Positions 36,272 to 64,000 of a stretch of DNA of 64,000 nt are shown piece after piece. Source of the stretch: Perkinsus chesapeaki (taxonomy: Eukaryota > Perkinsozoa > Perkinsida > Perkinsidae); contig JAAPAO010000128.1 in NCBI GenBank assembly GCA_013115145.1, forward strand, positions 1 through 64,000. The letters run 5' to 3'. Below the pieces are notes generated by a model. That model worked only from the letters and a program-made list of their open reading frames with translations, was not told the DNA's origin and did not search any database. The position numbers were made by a program, and so were the translations under genes. Each line of letters begins with the position of its first letter. Within the stretch, counting starts at the first letter, position 1.

Positions 36272-45160
<8,889 letters not shown>

Positions 45161-52110: not shown

Positions 52111-52518
52111 AGCATGCACGTTTACTTGATAATTTATGCACTTGTAGATCCCTTGAGAATTTGTGTTGATGGGAGGGGCACTCTGAATGGCAGGTTGTTT
52201 CTACTATTTGTTTCTCTATGGCATTTGATTCTAACTCTTCAGCCTTCCCAGTGGAAGCACCTTTGGCGTCAAGCCCATTAGAAGTTGTATTATCCGCCCA
52301 AAAAGTATTAAAGGGTGGGATCGAACCGGGGTGGACAGTGTGGCTTTCAGATTGTTTCGTACAAGTTATTGGCCTTAGAGCAGGACATGAAATATTTGGA
52401 GAAAAAGCGCGCTTGTTATCTACAGCGGAAGTAGGCTCCTTTCACAGCACTCATCCATTTAAGACGACCACTCAGGCTTGAGATCGCTCGGGAACTCCAG
52501 AGGAGGCAGCTGTTGGCC

Positions 52519-53798
52519 ATGCCAGTTGGACAGCTTCCATTCGAACACATTGCCCAATTCCTTACCGACCGAGACATCGTTCGGCTATCGGCCACGAGTC
52601 GACACTATCACGCTGCCTGTTGCGACCCTATCAAGGGCAAACTATTGGTGCCACACATCGCTCATGGTGGTACCAGCAGCGTATCTTTTGGTCGAGCGGC
52701 CAGAGCTGTTCCTAGGCTTTGCTTGCCGAGTATACAGAGTCTGAAGCTGGACGCGAGGAAGCCTGGGGCTCACGGGATGTTGTCCGCGTTGGCCGGGCTT
52801 CAACCGGGTTCTGTCCCCAACTTGCGCATTTTGCGTGTTAACTGCGCGGCAGAAAAGGACCACTTCGTTGACAACTTGGTCGATTTCTGTTGTACTGTGA
52901 TGAAGGCTGATCAGCTCGAGTCTCTTCACATAAGTGGTATCCGAAGCTTCGATACGTTGTGTGCGATACTAGGAGCCCACAGTGCATCGCTCAAGACCGT
53001 GAGAGCAGACTATTTTGTGGCTGGCCATGAGGCCAGATTTGAGGAGGGCGCATTGCCCCTCATGCCGAGGCTTACATCGCTCGCGCTTGATGTTGCTGAT
53101 GTGACTGAGATTTCCTCCGCATTAGCGCTCAGGGTTCTGAGTGCCATCGAGGAGCCTGAGAAGGTGATGGCAGCATGGCTCCGGTGATGTAGTATATTCA
53201 GTCTCAGGTTCAGCGCTTGTATTTGCCGCACGTTGAAATCAGCGGTGATAGTAACCATGTGAGCCAGGTGGTCCAGGTGTTAAATCGTTTTACTGGCCTC
53301 AAGCAACTGGTACGAGGAGTCCTAAGTGTCGGGGGAGCTGTGTCTCAGGTCCTCAGATTTGCGTTCATGCCGGTCAGCATTAAGGAACTTGTACGAATGA
53401 GGGAAGTTGATTTGAGACATCTTCCAGCTGTTTGTATTTCTGATCACTTTATTGTTGCTATGGAGAGATGGGCGCCGTGGTGGCCGGCCATATCTGAAGT
53501 GAGTGCGCTGCCAGGTGGAGGTTAGTAATGCTGCTGCTGCTGCTGCTCCTGTTAGGTTTGGGAAAAGGAGGACAGCATAACGGGGCTGTCGGTATTCCAG
53601 GAGCAAATTGACTTCGAAGTCCTCGGCACAACTGCCGCTCGGGAATGGCTGAAATTGTCCCAAGAGCAAAAACGCGTTTGGGAGAACGAGATAGCGCCCA
53701 CTGTCCGCCGCTTGCACCAAGACGCGCGGAAGAAGTCTCCTCGAGAGGTCCCCCGATTAGGGACCAGAGTCCAGCAGTTCAGCCCTCCATCCGTATGA
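52519..53798 (+). CDS. F-box-like/LRR protein with HMG-box-like C-terminus
   Basis: Four exons in phase (52519-53163, 53208-53309, 53349-53498, 53556-53798) give 379 aa. The N-terminus MPVGQLPFEHIAQFLTDRDI then VRLSATSRHYHAACC fits an F-box (LPxxxxxxIxxFLxxxDxxxLxxxSRxxH), the SKP1-binding module of ubiquitin ligases. The middle has leucine-rich blocks (LPSIQSLKLDAR, VPNLRILRVNCA, LESLHISGIRSF). The last exon contains AAREWLKLSQEQKRVWENEI then APTVRRLHQDARKKSPRE, which resembles the second half of an HMG box. The third intron (53499-53555) carries a short CTG repeat. The F-box assignment is moderate; the HMG resemblance is weak. Confidence 0.6.
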
Positions 53799-55000: not shown

Positions 55001-56413
55001 ATGGAACTCACGTCAGATGATATCTGGGGCTCGCCCATCCGAGGAGTGGCTTTGCGTGAAATCACCGCAAGGTTGTCTGTGTTTCGGAACTCTGAAGCAT
55101 CAGATGAATCATACCGATTGTCCAAAACGGTCGAGAAGTTAGATCTATTTTTAAGTCACTCATGGTCTGGTAGCCCTTTCTGGAAGCATATGACACTCGT
55201 TACCGTTCTGTATGTCAAGTTTGGTTATATTGCAATGCTCCTCACTGTTATACCATTATCAGTAGGTATTTACTTCTTACCCGTTTATAAAAGAGAGGCT
55301 GTTGTAGCCACGGAAGTACTCGGTGTGTTGGCCATGTTTCTCGGTATGTGGTTTGGTTATCTAGTCCCAAGCCGAACCAACAAGAAAATGGTGTTCCTTG
55401 ATAAATGCTGTATACCTCAAGTTGACGAGAAGGCGAAGAGGGAAGGGTTGAAGAACATGGAAGCCTACCTTAGTCGATCTGATACGCTGCTTATCCTTTG
55501 GACGCCCGAGTACTTCTCGAGGCTTTGGTGTGTCTTTGAGTTGGCTAGCTATCTTCGTAGTCATGGAGCCGACTCGATTCTGTGCTTGTCGGCTTGGTTT
55601 ATGCGGTTTTCTTACGTTGTCGTCTGGTGGGAGGTGTTCAGTCTTCTTGCTGCTGAAATCGCGAACGCCGCAATCCCAATCAAACAAGCACAGACGCTTT
55701 GGGGCGAATTCGTTGTGTGTTTAGTCGCTGAGGTCGCTATATCCATCGCTATATGTTTAATTGTGATCCTCTTCTGTATTCCTGCCAAGATGGAGTTGAA
55801 GAAGCAGGTTCAACAGTTTTCAATGCGGACAGCATACTGCACGCTCGCTGAAGATACTACTATGCTGAGCTCTCGAATTTCCGAGTGGTATGGCTCGAAT
55901 GAAAACTTTGATGAGTGTGTACGAAGTAGCTGGTCACGGGTAAACTCAGTAATGAAGATTCCAGAGCCTGCCTTATCGAGACCGGGAATTGCCTTCGTTA
56001 CCTTCCCTTATGTAATGGCCTTGTGGCCTCGTTTGCTTACTGCTTTGGCCTGGAATTATGGAAGCGAGGAAAATGGGTATTCATGGACTGTAATTATTCG
56101 GAGTACATTCATCATGTTTGTTCTACTAGCATGCCGCACACCTCTCTTCGTTGTGATGTCCTACCGCATAGGTAGCGCCGTATGGCTGAAGGGCAGTCTC
56201 GCTAAATGCATCAGTATCGCTATTATGGTGTTTTTTGCTCTTCTTTACGGTGGCGCTATGTTCGTTTCAGCGCAGGGAGTCTTAATCTTTTACGGACCCC
56301 AGACGCCAGTTCTATTCCCGCAAAGTCCCTGGGCGTGGCTATTCATCACACTACCGATATTGGCCGTTGCATTGGTGTGCTGGACCCACTTTCCCCGCAG
56401 CTTGCATCATTGA
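55001..56413 (+). CDS. TIR-like polytopic membrane protein, copy 1
   Basis: Intronless ORF, 470 aa, ATG 55001 (MELTSDDIWGSPIRG). TIR-type landmarks: LDLFLSHSWSGSPFWK (aa 48-62, strand A), MVFLDKCCIPQVDEKAKREG (130-149), TLLILWTPEYFSRLWCVFEL (162-181), with Glu180 where catalytic or structural Glu sits in TIR domains. Between strand A and the CCIP block lies a transmembrane hairpin (YIAMLLTVIPLSVGIYFL at 76-93 and EVLGVLAMFLGMWFGYLV at 105-122). At least six more hydrophobic segments follow. TIR domains signal in immunity and cell death and many cleave NAD; whether this one does is unknown. Paralogues lie at 59216 and 63732, same strand. Function is inferred from motifs only. Confidence 0.75.
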   Translation: MELTSDDIWGSPIRGVALREITARLSVFRNSEASDESYRLSKTVEKLDLFLSHSWSGSPFWKHMTLVTVLYVKFGYIAMLLTVIPLSVGIYFLPVYKREAVVATEVLGVLAMFLGMWFGYLVPSRTNKKMVFLDKCCIPQVDEKAKREGLKNMEAYLSRSDTLLILWTPEYFSRLWCVFELASYLRSHGADSILCLSAWFMRFSYVVVWWEVFSLLAAEIANAAIPIKQAQTLWGEFVVCLVAEVAISIAICLIVILFCIPAKMELKKQVQQFSMRTAYCTLAEDTTMLSSRISEWYGSNENFDECVRSSWSRVNSVMKIPEPALSRPGIAFVTFPYVMALWPRLLTALAWNYGSEENGYSWTVIIRSTFIMFVLLACRTPLFVVMSYRIGSAVWLKGSLAKCISIAIMVFFALLYGGAMFVSAQGVLIFYGPQTPVLFPQSPWAWLFITLPILAVALVCWTHFPRSLHH

Positions 56414-56924
56414 TAAGTCATTATTTCATCCTTATTTGTCGAGGTTTAAAATTATAGGCAGGTCTTTTGTAAGATACGTGTATTGAGTTTAGTTTTCTCC
56501 GTTTTTGGGCATTGGTAAAGTGACATTAGTTATTTGAAATATATAATATATTTCGAAATCGGTGTTCCTTGTTGGCAAGAAGCTTTTGATTGTATGGCAA
56601 GTAAGGCCTTGAAATTTCTGTTGGCATCTAAATAAGTCAGAATGTGACCAGTATGATATCGAAGGAGTAAGAACAGACCTTTCCTGAGGGTGAGGTGCTA
56701 GCCCTCCGAACCATGAGACGAGAATGGTGGGAGTTTAAGTCCAAGAACCGGGATCGAGATCTGAAGTTTTAGCTGTTCTGTATTGCAACTTAATGGTTGA
56801 ACCACCTTCTTCAGATCAAATACTGTGCAGGTGATTAAGTTCTTCTCGTTCTGATCACTCTTTTGGTTCCAGAGTGTCAAAACCTCATACTTGTTACCTC
56901 TGCGGTCATGCGTCCACCACCTGT

Positions 56925-56986
56925 CGCCCAGCAGGCTGCTGGGCGTTTGCCGACGCAGCTGCTGGCAGCAGCTGTGTCGGCAAACG
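56925..56986. repeat. Paired palindromes
   Basis: 56925-56945: CGCCCAGCAG G CTGCTGGGCG, perfect with a 1-nt centre. 56944-56986: arms CGTTTGCCGAC and CAGCTGCTG around a single G, with one mismatched pair. The two overlap by 2 bp. Confidence 0.85.
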
Positions 56987-57071
56987 TCATAAGAGTCTCT
57001 TATTGAGAGATGACATCAAGCACATCTCTGAGATGTGATAAGTATTTCCGAAATACTATGTCGCCTGAATC

Positions 57072-57145
57072 CTCCGAACTTCGGAGTCTTCGGAGTCCGA
57101 AGACTGGGGAGTTCCCAGTGGGGACTGTGACACAGTCGCTGTGTC
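57072..57145. repeat. Chain of overlapping palindromes with 1-3 nt centres
   Basis: 57072-57086 CTCCGAA C TTCGGAG; 57085-57105 AGTCTTCGGA G TCCGAAGACT; 57123-57137 GACTGTG A CACAGTC; 57129-57145 GACACAG TCG CTGTGTC. A further one lies at 57233-57247 (ACCCTCC C GGAGGGT). Confidence 0.85.
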
Positions 57146-57347
57146 CGACATTCAATATCGGGCTTCACAAGGGTACAGTAGCTCGCATGGAGAAGTACAT
57201 ACCGAGAGGCTTCGTGCCTTTTTCCTGGAAGAACCCTCCCGGAGGGTCCCTCCCCGTCTAATACGGGGGGGGCGGAGGAGGTCAGCCTAAAACGGCTTTG
57301 GATCCCGTCACCTTGCCATCAGCCAGCGAGATTGGCAAGGAGTTTAG

Positions 57348-57922
57348 CACGCTCAATTTTCTAAACCAGCACGATACAGCCAGATACTTGAGCGACTTGC
57401 TGAGGATCAGGGAGTGCTAGACTTGCTCAAGCTCACCCAGGACGCCGCCTGTGCAGCTAAGCCTCCTGCTGCGGTTCCTATGCCCCGCGTGAAGTCCTAT
57501 GTATCCACCTTGGACCTTCCCCAGCGTAAGCTCGAGAAGCTTGCTGGTAGTATCGATAGAGACTCATGGAGCTCTGTGCTCCCGCAGAGGTCACCCATAC
57601 GGTCCTCCTTGTCGGACTGTGAGCTGAACTTTGTCCTACGGAACCCAAGGATATGTTCAGCTCTGTTTGCAAGCACTTCGAACTTCAATCTACCTCCAGC
57701 AGCTCCAGCAGCACCAATAGCACAGAAGGGTCACAGAGACTCGTGTTCGGGATGGACTTCGGTGGTGGCACTAATAAGGTAGCCGTACGTCCTGTGGGAC
57801 TATCCGATGGACATGGCTGTTTGGTTGTGCTGGACAGCAGGAAGGACTCGAGGCTCACCACAAAACAGATCGTTCATGAGTTGAAACGGCTCGAGCAGTG
57901 GTTCCACTTGTTTCAATTCTGA
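57348..57922 (+). CDS. Coding-like stretch, uncharacterised, possibly decayed
   Basis: After a possible acceptor AAGGAGTTTAG the + strand reads SKPARYSQILERLAEDQGVL, DLLKLTQDAACAAKPPAAVP, PRVKSYVSTLDLPQRKLEKL and RSSLSDCELNFVLR. Around 57640-57660 the convincing frame shifts to FSSVCKHFELQSTSSSSSST, LVFGMDFGGGTNKVAVRPVG and KQIVHELKRLEQWF, with a TGA near 57920. An intron or a frameshift is needed to join them. GMDFGGGTNKVAV faintly recalls phosphate-binding loops of actin/Hsp70-fold proteins, but that is not enough to assign a family. It sits between palindrome clusters and could be a mobile-element remnant. Confidence 0.35.
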
Positions 57923-58092
57923 TAACGAACAACAGTTTTCGGCCGGGACATCATCTAACGCCTGATGGTTATGCGCCGCATGATATTTCTTCCCGACGAC
58001 ACCGCATAATATGCTAAGGTCTGGACCAGACCATCTGGGGCATGCAGGAATCAACTGGAAGATCTTCGGTCAGATAAGCTGCATCTATCTCC

Positions 58093-58216
58093 GGGAGATG
58101 ATCTCCCACCAACCCTATTGCAGGAAGCACTCCCACCAAGACTGACGTCTTGTGCTACTCCGGGTCCCGGAGTCCGGGAATGACTGCAAAAGGATCCTAG
58201 AGTCTAGGACCTAGAC
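58093..58216. repeat. Cluster of short perfect palindromes
   Basis: 58093-58107 GGGAGAT G ATCTCCC; 58157-58173 ACTCCGGG T CCCGGAGT; 58166-58178 CCCGGA G TCCGGG; 58195-58209 TCCTAGA G TCTAGGA; 58202-58216 GTCTAGG A CCTAGAC. All are perfect with a 1-nt centre, and two adjacent pairs overlap. Confidence 0.85.
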
Positions 58217-58439
58217 AAATCGGATACTACTGCGCCCGCTCTCGAAGGCTTGGAGAAGTGGAAAGATTCATGTAAGGTCCCGGTAGCTACGTGTTTGCTC
58301 ATGAAAGGGCTGATGGCTGCGCATTCTGCGGAGTCCCGTTAATGATTTCAACAATGCGTACGTTTCTGCAGGATACAATTCGAGTCTGATTATTCATTAA
58401 ATGAATTTCATTTGCTGTTGGTCCATACAGTCGAGCTCT

Positions 58440-58682
58440 ATATGGCAGCAGTGATGGCTTGCGACTAGTGACTGAGGAGTTGTCAGAGCAAGTACACTCG
58501 GCGGTGAACACAGTCATTAGACGATCACAGATGGGATCCAATTTGCTCGGTCCAATGGCCATGTGGAACTGGCAGTATTCGCCTGATGAAGCCTCGGAAT
58601 CCGTCGATTACCTTATCCCCGGGAGCCCTAGTTACAGGCCGGAGCGGAACCGGAAAGGGGATAGCATTATCTTCCCAAGTTA
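58440..58682 (+). CDS. Coding-like fragment, uncharacterised
   Basis: Open + frame with LRLVTEELSEQVHSAVNTVI then RRSQMGSNLLGPMAMWNWQY and ESVDYLIPGSPSYRPERNRK, ending at TAA 58680-58682. The composition is protein-like but no start or splice context is clear. It may be a further exon or relic related to 57348-57922. Confidence 0.3.
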
Positions 58683-58743
58683 ATCTCAGTTCTACCTCTC
58701 AGCCTTCCACTCGGTTTCAGTCAGGTGGTTCGGAGTATGTTGA

Positions 58744-58874
58744 TGGAAGGGAGTCCAACAGTAAATAATTCTTTCGAGTCGAAAGAATTATTTACTGTTG
58801 GACTCCCTTCCAATCACAATCACACACAATCACAGTAAGTTAGTCGAAAGTTTCGACTAACTTACTGTGATTGT
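58744..58874. repeat. Two long perfect palindromes (69 and 49 bp)
   Basis: 58744-58812: 34-bp arms, starting TGGAAGGGAGTCCAAC, around a single G, with no mismatch. 58826-58874: 24-bp arms, starting ACAATCACAGTAAG, around a single G, no mismatch. Only 13 bp (an ATCACA-rich linker) separate them. Confidence 0.95.
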
Positions 58875-59047
58875 TGCACCGATAAAGATTCGTTCCGAAC
58901 GCGAATATTCTGAGGAAAATAGCTAAAACAAGATTAACAGCTAAAATTTTAGATTAGTAGTGTGGACCACTGATTGCTCACGACTCCCGCGTAGGCAAAC
59001 CCTGGCAGTTGTTAAGGATGCGACACACATTCTGTCACACTGCGTGA

Positions 59048-59090
59048 ACAGTCACAGCGTGACTGTGCCCCACCGACAGAAGTTCTGTCG
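59048..59090. repeat. Paired palindromes
   Basis: 59048-59066 ACAGTCAC AGC GTGACTGT and 59074-59090 CGACAGAA G TTCTGTCG, 126 bp upstream of the second TIR-like start codon. Confidence 0.85.
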
Positions 59091-59215
59091 CTGCGAAATG
59101 CTCGAAGCCCCTGGGATTTAAGTGGTAGCCTTCATCATTGCGAGGTACATGTCTTTTTGTTGTGGGCTTTCGCTGCTCTATTCTTCAGTCCTCTTGGCAG
59201 TATATTCCTTTTTAT

Positions 59216-60706
59216 ATGGCTGATCCTAATATCGGCGTTGAAGGACCCCCAGAGTTACGAATGCGGAGCTCGAGCGACGTGTCGGACCTCGCCCAGCTGC
59301 TACGAGGAATACCTGCTAGTGTTATCGCAGCTAACTGGTCTCTTTTCCGTGATCCTGGAGCTGATCGCTCTACATATGATCTGTCCCGACCTGTTAATAT
59401 CTTGGACGTTTTTATTAGCCACTCATGGTCAGGCAGTCCACTGTGGAAGCAGATATCATTTCTAACTACCCTTTACCTCCGGGAGGGCTATATTGCTATG
59501 TTTATCGTTGTTATTCCTTTATCTATTGGAGTCTATGTATTACCATCTCACCAGGAGCTCGCGTCTGTCCTGGTTGAACTTGTTGGTGTCATTGCTATGT
59601 GTCTTGGTGTGGTGTATGGGTATCGGTTGGTCAAGAAGAAGTCGGAAGATATGGTTTTCCTGGATAAATGTTGTATACCACAAGATGATCCTGCCGCCAA
59701 GGAGCGGGGTATATGCAGTATAAGCGTTTTTCTACACCATTCGAGCAGGCTTATGATACTGTGGAGCCCAGACTACTTCTCACGGCTCTGGTGCGTATTC
59801 GAATTGGCATCCTTTCTTCGAGCACATAGCCCCGATGCTATTGTACTAGTATCCACATTGCAAAGCCGTTTTTGTATATCCGTCACTATCTGCGAAATTG
59901 CTGTGCTCGTGACGGTCATCCTAAGCGATCTGTTGTTCAAAATCCATCCATTAGCATTCTATGCACCACTCGTGGTCCTCATTGTACTAGAAGTCATAGT
60001 GACTTTTGTCATATGCGTTGAGGTTATTTCTGGATTCGTGCCGGCGAAGTCTAAGATCAACGAACAAGTGGAATCCTTTCGAGTGAGTGAGGCCCAGTGC
60101 TCCCTCCCCGAGGATAATCGTGTCCTTCGTGAAACCATCGCTCAATGGTATGGATCTGAATCACAGTTTGAGGACAGTTTACGTGACAACTGGCCTCGCT
60201 TGGGTGCAACTCAAATTCCGGAATGGGCCCTGAGTCGGCGCAGCGTAGGGATCGTCATGTTCCCGTATATGATTATTTGGGCTCCGCGTATTGCGTGTCT
60301 CATATCTACGCCGACTCTGATGCCCAGAGAGCAGTGGTGGTTGTACGTTAGAGATGTCCTTATTGCGTGTGTCATGCTTGCTTGTCGAACACCGTTATTC
60401 GCTTTTGTTGCATGCAAACTAACAACCTCAGCCGGACGACATGGAGTACCAAACTGGATCGTCATTGTCGTGGTGCTTGTATTTGGGGTTTTGTATGATG
60501 CTACTGAGATTGTTGGAGGAGGGGTAGCCCTGTTCGACTCGAGCCTCGCAACTCGGTTCAAGCTCCCTGAACCCTATGGCTGGGTGTTCGTCATTCCTGC
60601 TTGTGGTTGCCTACTTGCTATTTGGTGGACTTATCGTGGTCTCACATTTTGTTCAAGGCGCCGATCGACACCTCAAAAGATCGTCAGTACAGAAAACTCA
60701 CTTTAA
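59216..60706 (+). CDS. TIR-like polytopic membrane protein, copy 2
   Basis: Intronless, 496 aa from ATG 59216 (MADPNIGVEGPPELR); the frame is open upstream to 59138, but this ATG best fits the paralogue's length. Motifs: ILDVFISHSWSGSPLW (aa 62-77), MVFLDKCCIPQDDPAAKERG (146-165), RLMILWSPDYFSRLWCVFEL (178-197) with Glu196. A transmembrane hairpin (GYIAMFIVVIPLSIGVYVLP and ELVGVIAMCLGVVYGY) again separates strand A from the CCIP block. Further hydrophobic helices follow (LVVLIVLEVIVTFVICVEVI; IVIVVVLVFGVLYDATEI). Clearly diverged from copy 1 at the nucleotide level, but every motif is kept, so selection has preserved both. The C-terminus ends in a short basic tail (FCSRRRSTPQK). Confidence 0.75.
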   Translation: MADPNIGVEGPPELRMRSSSDVSDLAQLLRGIPASVIAANWSLFRDPGADRSTYDLSRPVNILDVFISHSWSGSPLWKQISFLTTLYLREGYIAMFIVVIPLSIGVYVLPSHQELASVLVELVGVIAMCLGVVYGYRLVKKKSEDMVFLDKCCIPQDDPAAKERGICSISVFLHHSSRLMILWSPDYFSRLWCVFELASFLRAHSPDAIVLVSTLQSRFCISVTICEIAVLVTVILSDLLFKIHPLAFYAPLVVLIVLEVIVTFVICVEVISGFVPAKSKINEQVESFRVSEAQCSLPEDNRVLRETIAQWYGSESQFEDSLRDNWPRLGATQIPEWALSRRSVGIVMFPYMIIWAPRIACLISTPTLMPREQWWLYVRDVLIACVMLACRTPLFAFVACKLTTSAGRHGVPNWIVIVVVLVFGVLYDATEIVGGGVALFDSSLATRFKLPEPYGWVFVIPACGCLLAIWWTYRGLTFCSRRRSTPQKIVSTENSL

Positions 60707-63700
60707 TTTCCTTTTCTGAACTTGTTTTTTCTAATCATGTACAGTAAGCTGTCGGATGATTTGACTGGCTTGACTTTGCTACCCATGCAGATTGACCGAC
60801 ATCTGTTAAGTATTTTCGTTTCATTCGTGCCTAGTTTATGAAGCCGGTGAGGCTCATGTTGGAGTGCGAGAGGTTTGTTGATTGCTGTCCGTTGCATAAG
60901 CGTCAAAGGGTGAGTGACGCAGCCGATCAAGTCGGGCAATCTATTGCATTTTCCTGCTGTACTTTACATTTCACGCCTTCGATTATGTCGTTTCGATACC
61001 TACTAACCGTCATAATACTACAGCAAGGCTGTAATTCGATTCCTTCGGAGATTATCTTAGTTCTCATAGTGTAAATTCGGGACTAACCCTCAAACAAAGA
61101 TCAGAAATCCACGACGATCTTTGGCAAGTGCATGGATCGACAAGTTTTGCGAGAATCTGAGCCGAGGATTGGAGAGTCTTATTACATACTCGGGTACTGA
61201 GGAGTGTACACCCTTTCCACACAAGACAACATCGGTTCTCAGACCGCAATGCTTTCCGAAGTATATAGTAGGCCAAGTCTCCAGGGCAAGTCGAAACGAA
61301 ATGCAATGATGGAGCAATCAAACAAATAGATGTGTTGATAGAATGTTGTGTATATAATACTCATTGATGGTCTCGAGTCCTTGGCAAACATCTTTTCATG
61401 AACTGCGATCGTGTTCGGTAATTATCCTACAACTGTTGTGTGTAACACACTTCTCCCGCCACAGCTAATCTACATCCGACTCAATCTAAGTTCATAATGA
61501 TTCATTATTAATAAACAATCGGAGATGATGGCGTCATCGAAGCAACCTTGGTATGGCAACTCTTTCAGAGGTACCAAAACTTGAAAATCACAAGTTGCGG
61601 AATTGAAGTTGCAACCTCCATCCTAGCTCGGATTCGTTATTGCAGTAATGACAAGGCAACTAGATTTGACAATTATCTCGAACTATAGACGAACCTAAAA
61701 CATGGGGTCGTCTGATGACATCCTTATATCCCATGTTCTGTTACAGAACTCCTGTAGCCAGGCAACAGTAGACTTGCACTCAAAATATATGTGTGGCACG
61801 GAACATACGATTCCACGACAGTGCGAATTGCAATCGGATTAACGGAATGAAAACTTGGATCCGGTGGAATGACAAACCAGTTGCTAGTAATTGAGATCCA
61901 ACAGCACCAGTCGCTTGACCATAAACTTTTAATGGCATGAAGCCTCATCTGTATTCCAGCCCGACCGAGTACAGGAGAGACTCGGTCAAGTTTGGGTTTT
62001 TTTATTGTAGTTCTACCGTCATGAGGTGCTACCGAGCTTAAGAGCAATAATAAAACTATTCACTCATTCCTGTGGCTGTTGTCGCCTACAAACTGTAGAC
62101 CATAATTTGTGTGTAAGATGGCAACGCTAGGAACCAAGTTGGTTCAACCAACGCCAACACTCATCTAGCAGCTTTGCGAATTGCACTAGAATTTCGCGTG
62201 GAATTAGATGCCTGACGGCTTTTGATTGAACTAGCTGATTCCATAAAATCTCACTTGACGAAGCGGGTATCTATAAAATATAAGATACGACAGTGTCATG
62301 ATGACATGACGGACTACTTCAATTCGTCATGTACCTATATCATACCTATTGGAAGACTCCACTAAGCCCGAGCGCCGACCGAGTTGAGTATTGGTTGAGA
62401 TTCACCTGCAAAGACGCGGTTTTCGTTCGATCCGCAAGGATCGAGAAAACCGCCCCAGTACATTTAACCTCATTGTTACCTTTGTGGTAACACCAGGCTA
62501 TCCAAAACAACGCAGTTTTCATCGTTCGTTGAGTTGAGCCTTTGTCACAGTCAGTTCGGTCGAAAATTGATGGAGTTTTTGTGAGGATGTCATAGTCAGT
62601 CTGGGCTCAGACTGACCGACTAAATAACGAGCTTATCACAGCAGTAAGATTATGAAACTTCTAGTGATGCCGGTATTATAATAGTTGGTTGATGAGGGAT
62701 ATCCCAAATCATTTTCCGTTCACCTCTTCGCAGTTGCAGCCTGAAGCATACAGCAATTGGCTCTATACCTCGTGAAGCGAACTTACTCAGTTCCCATAGC
62801 TTACGCAAACCGCCATAGCTATCGTTGACTGAGTATCACGTTTGACATTGTGAGAAAATCATCTGGTCGTGTTCCAAATGGGAGGGTGGCTTCAATCTCG
62901 TCTACTATGAATCATAGTCTATGATAGTTTATCGAGAAACGTTCCCAGTGATGTGTTAACAACTGAGTAGCAAGTGCGTTGGACCCGCAGCATGAGTAAT
63001 TGCTTCGTTCGAGCCCACTAGTTGCACGTCTGTGAGGGTCTTGCTTACTGGTATCAATTACGTCCCTAACAGGTTTTTATCCTATACAACAATCAAAAAT
63101 CGGTCGATCTTCTAGCATTTCTAGCTTAGCAGGTCCATCTGGGAGCACTGGCGCTGAAAAAAAGGTTATACAACTCACGTCGCTCCAGACAAGAACTGAT
63201 CCATCATCGCTAAGTGGAGCACTCTACAGTCTCTGCCCGTTCATACTCCGAGCAATACGAAGGTGCGAAAGAAGGCTTCTCTTCGCATATGCTTCGCCTT
63301 TCCCTCGCGCAATAAACGAGTGAATTACAGAACCTTCAATCTTAACGGCATCAGTTTTCAGAAACACCGAGTCAGGTAGACACGGGACTCGTGACAGAAC
63401 TCCTGTCACCGGAGATGCTTGACTGACCGCGCGCTCTGTCCCACTCTGAGATGTATCGTTGCCATTATTTGTGTGGCATAACCCTACGGAAGACTCCTCC
63501 TCTGGGGGTTGGATCGGGTTCGGCATCTTTAAGGCTCTAGCAGTATGGTCACTAGATTATTTGATACCTGCTTGCGTTTGAAGCCGGCAGGCTACAAACA
63601 TTCCGCGGAGCCCCAGCAGTGGCATCATGAGAAGTGCGACGTCACCCCGGCTGCCGGAGCCCGGCATCTCGCTTCGATCTGAGCCGAGATCCGTTTTATC

Positions 63701-63731
63701 GTTCTCAGTTTGAAGTGCGAGCTTTCCTCTC
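60707..63731. other. Intergenic, hairpin-rich, no gene recognised
   Basis: About 3 kb between TIR-like copies 2 and 3. Short frames (60838-61074, 61064-61321, 61724-62047, 63224-63526) lack families or splice context. Inverted repeats include 61963-61987 (GACCGAGT/ACTCGGTC) and 63391-63409 (GTGACAG/CTGTCAC) besides those listed separately. Confidence 0.35.
62416..62616. repeat. Three inverted repeats
   Basis: 62416-62453: arms GCGGTTTTC and TCGATCC (with a GT bulge) around GCAA. 62474-62492: TGTTACC/GGTAACA with a 5-nt loop. 62595-62616: GTCAGTCT/AGACTGAC with a 6-nt loop. Confidence 0.8.
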
Positions 63732-64000
63732 ATGGACTTCATCACGTCGAGCGAGAGACCTGTGTTCGGATCTCATATTCGAGGTACAACTCTGGATAAC
63801 ATCACCTCAAGATGTTATTTATTCTACAATTCGGAGGCATCCGAGAAAACTTACGAGCTGTCGAGACAAGTCGAGAAGTTAGATCTATTTTTAAGTCACT
63901 CATGGTCTGGTAGCCCTTTCTGGAAGCATATGACACTCGTTACCGTTCTATATGTCAAGTTTGGTTATATTGCAATGCTCCTCACTGTTATACCATTATC
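63732..64000 (+). CDS. TIR-like polytopic membrane protein, copy 3 (partial, cut by window end)
   Basis: ATG 63732 opens MDFITSSERPVFGSHIRGTT, aligning with copy 1 (shared words SxIRG, NSEAS, LS..VEKLDL). The frame continues through FLSHSWSGSPFWKH into the first transmembrane segment at the window edge. The first 46 codons are diverged from copy 1; from 63870 to 64000 the DNA equals 55130-55260 except one synonymous base (63950 A versus 55210 G). It is open to the end, so probably an intact gene that continues beyond the window. Confidence 0.7.
   Translation, partial: MDFITSSERPVFGSHIRGTTLDNITSRCYLFYNSEASEKTYELSRQVEKLDLFLSHSWSGSPFWKHMTLVTVLYVKFGYIAMLLTVIPL

Follow-up and report, generated by a model that had tools for sequence, protein, structure and literature searches.

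How can the strands of one TIR domain come together when long hydrophobic stretches lie between them? The question is raised by three genes, here called A, B and C, on contig C33 (67,439 bases) of the 35.4-Mb genome of Perkinsus chesapeaki, a single-celled parasite of clams; the window analysed comprises positions 1 to 64,000 of this contig. We read their products as multi-pass membrane proteins with two predicted transmembrane (TM) hairpins that break up a predicted TIR domain; a TIR signal in the cytosol, probably cleavage of nicotinamide adenine dinucleotide (NAD), is likely under the control of the membrane part. To this reading as a whole we assign a probability of about 0.5.

Genes and conserved motifs

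Sequence comparison by itself suffices to establish a gene family with common motifs, a Glu that is invariant in the rows examined, two long inserts with hydrophobic segments and a relative, P0048, in which the inserts are absent. The members in the window are as follows.

55001..56413, + strand: gene A, 470 residues, uninterrupted frame; predicted multi-pass TIR-like membrane protein
55538..55540, + strand: gene A Glu180 of RLWCVFE, at the TIR Glu position
59216..60706, + strand: gene B, 496 residues from ATG, uninterrupted frame; predicted multi-pass TIR-like membrane protein, modelled here
63732..64000, + strand: gene C, start only in the window; runs on to contig position 65150

The translated open reading frames (ORFs) of genes A and B contain FLSHSWSGSP or FISHSWSGSP, FLDKCCIPQ and LWCVFELAS. 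This bears out the first-pass annotation of the stretch, which had proposed three copies on the same strand with these motifs; the third is cut by the window edge and stays open to 65150. The ORF of gene B opens at a TTG (59138) upstream of its ATG.

Conservation was assessed in an alignment of 84 rows, made up of 47 proteins (alignment A2), 34 genome frames and P0048 to P0050, with P0048 represented by residues 441-640 only. Removal of eight rows with identical cores left 76, and counts are given over the rows with a letter at the position, the others being fragments, or gene models in which the stretch is missing. Since many of the 76 rows are close paralogues, they are not independent. The most conserved positions are F66 (66/66), H69 (64/66) and W71 (65/65) around the first motif, D150 (71/72), C153 (69/72) and Q156 (70/72) in the second, W192 and E196 (69/69 each), which form the WxxxE of helix C, and D300 (67/70). 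The invariant positions hold among sequences with as little as 17% identity to gene B. The Glu that the annotation had placed at the usual TIR position, Glu180 in gene A, thus corresponds to the WxxxE Glu found in every row that covers it, as expected in the TIR superfamily.

The family is large. A tblastn search with gene A gave at least 36 matches in the P. chesapeaki genome, with at least two on each of nine contigs (C33, C782, C168, C217, C171, C32, C81, C4 and C734). Among 86 frames of at least 120 residues from 36 partly overlapping loci, 51 matched the family profile, and 34 remained once contained copies were removed, some of them fragments. Protein searches returned 27, 32 and 11 proteins in overlapping sets (the first two among the 8000 or 7990 best candidates), with relatives in P. 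olseni, P. marinus, Symbiodinium and Durusdinium and among metagenome and transcriptome proteins. Given the genome copies, the relatives in four taxa and the invariant positions, the family resemblance is more than chance. Pattern searches elsewhere yielded no relatives: tblastn showed none among 19 matches to one pattern in viral contigs, and none of the 56 matches to two patterns in prokaryote genomes was one.

Predicted fold and the two hairpins

The following elements were assigned to gene B from its predicted structure, from hydropathy (19-residue window, mean of at least 1.5) and from alignment, and then transferred to gene A.

59402..59422, + strand: gene B strand A, residues 63-69, LDVFISH (model)
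59438..59632, + strand: gene B hairpin 1, helix A with TM1 (75-108) and TM2 (110-139) (hydropathy, model)
59651..59683, + strand: gene B strand B with FLDKCCIPQ (146-156) (alignment, model)
59690..59764, + strand: gene B helix B (159-174, break at 168) and strand C (176-183) (model)
59786..59824, + strand: gene B helix C (191-203), with W192 and E196 of WxxxE (model, alignment)
59840..59854, + strand: gene B strand D (209-213) (model)
59855..60073, + strand: gene B hairpin 2, TM3 (214-243) and TM4 (249-286), from strand D to strand E (hydropathy, model, alignment)
60077..60151, + strand: gene B strand-E-like FRVSEAQC (288-295) and helix E (298-312) (model, alignment)
60236..60664, + strand: gene B C-terminal helices TM5-TM8 (341-483) (hydropathy, model)
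55139..55159, + strand: gene A strand A, LDLFLSH (aligned to gene B model)
55175..55369, + strand: gene A hairpin 1, helix A into TM1, turn, TM2 (aligned to gene B model)
55592..55813, + strand: gene A hairpin 2 region, strand D to strand E, approximate (aligned to gene B model)

In the gene B model the strands at residues 63-69 (LDVFISH), 146-148 (MVF, followed by LDKCCIPQ), 176-183 and 209-213 follow one another in TIR order. In VIA-align, residues 62-339 superpose on TIR domains of known structure; for AbTir, 111 of 134 residues are covered. A parallel sheet of strands A to E with alternating helices, in agreement with solved TIR domains, is seen in the predicted models of gene B and of the Symbiodinium homologue P0014, with four clear strands and a weak strand E, which in gene B (FRVSEAQC) is a single bridge residue in DSSP. 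A search of the whole gene B model against PDB with Foldseek gave no match at E ≤ 0.001. By strand order and superposition, the structure check proposed at the outset, that FISHSW and CCIP/WCVFE should share one sheet, did not refute an interrupted TIR-like fold. Both models contain a short extra N-terminal strand (residues 30-33 in gene B, 11-14 in P0014), which falls in a conserved RG-containing stretch ahead of the TIR core.

The membrane-embedded, interrupted fold put forward in the annotation is supported by the gene B model and VIA-align, and it is predicted to be more interrupted than was claimed. The stretch of about 70 residues with two hydrophobic helices after the first motif measures 76 residues from SHSW to FLDK and has two segments in both complete copies. 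A second hairpin, absent from that first reading, consists of two of the later helices and is placed within the fold, separating strands D and E. Four of the eight hydrophobic segments of gene B lie in the TIR region, so that its product is neither an uninterrupted compact domain of the canonical soluble type, the two inserts being modelled as long helical hairpins, nor a Toll/IL-1 receptor type protein with a single membrane helix outside the domain. The proposal of six or more helices after the first hairpin holds for gene B (six hydropathy segments and six long membrane-type helices in the model); in gene A hydropathy finds four, one of them in the hairpin 2 region, and six are reached only by alignment to gene B.

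Across the family, SHSW and strand B are 65-130 residues apart in 62 of 63 measured rows, and helix C and strand E 58-100 residues apart in 67 of 68; the sole exception to both is P0048, with 27 and 25. Hairpin 1 shows two hydropathy segments in 47 of the 63 rows, one in 15 and none in P0048. Hairpin 2 shows two in 38 of the 68, one in 25, three in one and none in four, P0048 among them. In 27 of the 30 A2 rows with enough letters (of 47), lysine and arginine are more abundant on the TIR-facing side of the predicted helices, a side that includes the soluble core; when only short helix-flanking stretches are counted, this holds in 29 of the 30. Because a hairpin returns the chain to the side from which it left, the strands would be able to meet in one cytosolic sheet.

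P0048, a metagenome protein found with the family profile (E 8.3e-14), resembles the family in having SHSW, WLDKCCIEQ, WCIWE and FSLARARC in the same order, and differs from it in that its TIR core has no hairpins. Its TIR-like domain follows an N-terminal part with hydrophobic segments and matches positions 2 to 89 of the TIR_2 profile as one stretch (E 0.01; 16.8 bits, below the cut-off of 28). The Lys at K78, found in 61 of 65 rows, is kept in P0048, and we therefore read hairpin 1 as following helix A rather than replacing it; in both models helix A is continuous with TM1. No separate uninterrupted relative was found in P. chesapeaki, where the P0048 TIR part has 30 matches, all at family places, the weak places on C659, C52, C140 and C148 not having been measured.

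The C-terminal membrane bundle matches ABCG-type structures in gene B and DPAGT1/MraY structures in P0014. As these disagree, we claim no relative for it.

Gene copies, neighbourhood and evolution of the core

Over its full length on C33, gene C is an open frame 88% identical to gene A. Beyond the window, after gene C, a fourth copy of B type occupies 65849-66406 and 66408-67354 (locus C33:62500-67439) and is without about 630 bases of the middle part, including the region of the WxxxE Glu. Positions 55130-56758 match 63870-65491 at 87.7%, and 59165-59722 match 65849-66406 at 98.9%; the resulting order of A-type, B-type, A-type and B-type copies fits a duplicated pair.

Low silent-site differences (pS) mark one part of some copies.

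55142..55546, + strand: gene A tract, residues 48-182, with very few silent-site differences from gene C and from two C782 copies

Among the six pairs of these four copies, pS is 0.045-0.135 in residues 48-182 and from 0.218 (A-C) to 0.759 in the rest. The tract begins at strand A, takes in hairpin 1 and reaches the Glu; its limits were set after viewing a 30-residue profile. In five pairs none of 2000 codon shuffles reached the core value that was observed; in A-C, 8 of 2000 did. In A-C the C-terminal half is near-identical too, and the two copies differ at the N-terminus and near residues 211-240, as expected from a recent duplication of the pair. No clear drop is evident for pairs that include C499 (595 and 1232 of 2000 shuffles), with the exception of C782b-C499 (10 of 2000; pS 0.59 versus 0.74), or for A-B and B-C31 (1194 and 845 of 2000). 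Against C499 the core has low protein-changing divergence (nonsynonymous dN 0.08-0.09, synonymous dS 1.1-1.4). We read the low core pS beside a divergent remainder as gene conversion between some copies, which would have homogenised the TIR core including hairpin 1 while the N-terminus and later membrane parts diverged.

Several public gene models depart from the open frames. FOL47_001224 is 100% identical to gene B across 63% of it, and the public model of gene B (P0010, 344 residues) diverges after residue 311 and thereby loses the last four membrane helices. The P. olseni models P0029-P0031 partly or wholly skip the stretch from strand B to helix C; these departures are probably spurious introns. 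In Symbiodinium natans, a model named smg1 (P0040) joins a family member to a piece with PF00454 and PF02260, which we take to be kinase and FATC domains, respectively; the model probably fuses separate genes.

Inspection by eye of the stretch separating genes A and B showed two palindromes, long and near-perfect, around taaataattctttcgagtcgaaagaattattta and cagtaagttagtcgaaagtttcgactaacttactg (58741-58875). Elsewhere, the window contains AT-rich tandem repeats with periods of 26, 29 and 57 (41842-42168), an ORF with a Male sterility protein (NAD_binding_4) domain (44048-45157, E 3.2e-16), an ORF matching TRM13 methyltransferase that is likely one exon (1580-2152, E 9.4e-13) and an ORF with an F-box-like match below threshold (52513-53184, E 3.8e-4).

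Function of the TIR core and alternative readings

Toll-like receptors are membrane-anchored TIR proteins whose membrane helix lies outside the TIR domain. In them and in Dictyostelium TirC, as in the present family, the TIR domain is tied to the membrane; TirC has one N-terminal helix outside it (PMC13142454), whereas the family has about eight predicted helices, some inside. The NAD-cleaving TIR domains of SARM1, AbTir and plant RPP1/RUN1 are uninterrupted and soluble, in contrast to the two predicted TM hairpins here, where NAD cleavage is inferred. Sphingobacterium faecium TIR-STING also has a TIR domain with a loop insertion and activity that depends on assembly; its insertion is a CC-loop element of strands, unlike the predicted hairpins of the family (PMC9402430). 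A 2026 atlas of eukaryotic TIR domains describes several eukaryote-only clades, none with a characterised member, and the family may already lie unnamed within one of them (PMC13142454). In the open-access literature searched, including the excerpts of PMC13142454 and PMC4083563, we found no description of a TIR domain with internal TM hairpins, and a search of it for Perkinsus gene families likewise yielded nothing on such an architecture.

Could the likeness to TIR be a chance product of modelling a helical membrane protein, the family being an unrelated transporter? Weak Foldseek E-values and mixed helical matches would fit this, but independent Pfam TIR matches above the cut-off, the uninterrupted relative P0048 and the agreement of two separately led models make it highly improbable. 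Genes A and B themselves score below the curated cut-offs of TIR (PF01582) and TIR_2 (PF13676); of the 16 PF01582 matches in the P. chesapeaki genome, 7 exceed the cut-off (three in short frames of 205-379 residues), as does that in P0032, and of the 10 PF13676 matches none does. A fold closer to the fungal HET domain (PF06985), a cell-death domain related to TIR, would make the family a membrane HET/TIR bridge. HET matches 7 of the 47 members at E ≤ 1 (best 0.0038). In P0014, P0042 and P0048 the weak HET match begins at the DxxCIxQ stretch. Where bit scores are available (eight proteins, three with a HET match), they stay at 12.4-14.4, below the HET cut-off of 22.5, and TIR_2 (31/47) and TIR (21/47) match more members at E ≤ 1, with better best E-values. 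HET is not known as a membrane protein. The two domains are remotely related (PMC4986451, PMC10890737), with a similarity that ends after helix C (PMC4986451), and we regard a HET assignment as quite improbable.

A possible though unlikely alternative is that the TIR core is a non-enzymatic scaffold, with the TM bundle as the receptor, the TIR domain recruiting partners as in Toll/IL-1 receptors and WxxxE being structural. The best sequence matches in PDB are TIR domains of IL1RAPL2, weak (E 0.23 and 0.039) and with the WxxxE region in register; IL1RAPL2 is not known to have NADase activity, and scaffold TIR domains can keep the Glu position too. On the other side, W192 and E196 are invariant in 69 rows and no downstream partner is known. 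Moreover, the genome matches of PF01582 and PF13676, the two TIR profiles run on the genome, fall only at family places, so no separate TIR adaptor was found with them. It is rather unlikely that the TIR-derived pocket has instead turned to another nucleotide, or to a lipid-linked substrate that the membrane part supplies. Because neither the WxxxE Glu nor its Trp shows any variation, we infer NAD cleavage as the likeliest output; SARM1 and plant TIR domains use an analogous Glu (PMC8295901).

Under our preferred reading, an interrupted TIR domain controlled from the membrane, the models suggest that the TIR strands would form one sheet on the cytosolic side, with helix A running straight into TM1 and TM3-TM4 placed between strands D and E, in place of helix D of other TIR domains. 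In plants, TIR assembly uses helices A and E, and the BB loop against the D/E surface, and sets the NAD pocket (PMC12856790), and in bacterial TIR-STING the packing of neighbouring TIR domains completes the active site (PMC9402430). With the hairpins at or next to helices A and D, the bundle would set the TIR contacts: a change in it may determine the way adjacent TIR cores contact each other in the plane of the membrane, and the altered contacts may open or close the Glu pocket. Sensing would then fall to the variable N-terminus and the later membrane helices, with the homogenised core as a constant output.

We tentatively suggest, as a possibility short of even odds, that perkinsids and dinoflagellates have a new class of integral-membrane TIR enzymes, in which two helices that serve assembly in other TIR domains lead into TM hairpins and the membrane protein is itself an NAD-signal switch, and that the tens of clustered copies, with their homogenised TIR core and their diversifying sensor parts, form the lineage's own receptor repertoire, a counterpart of Toll-like receptors and nucleotide-binding leucine-rich repeat receptors. 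If true, a membrane event would be coupled to a TIR signal without a separate receptor chain, in a domain otherwise treated as a soluble module on receptors, and this architecture would be found in shellfish parasites and coral symbionts, organisms with poorly known signalling.
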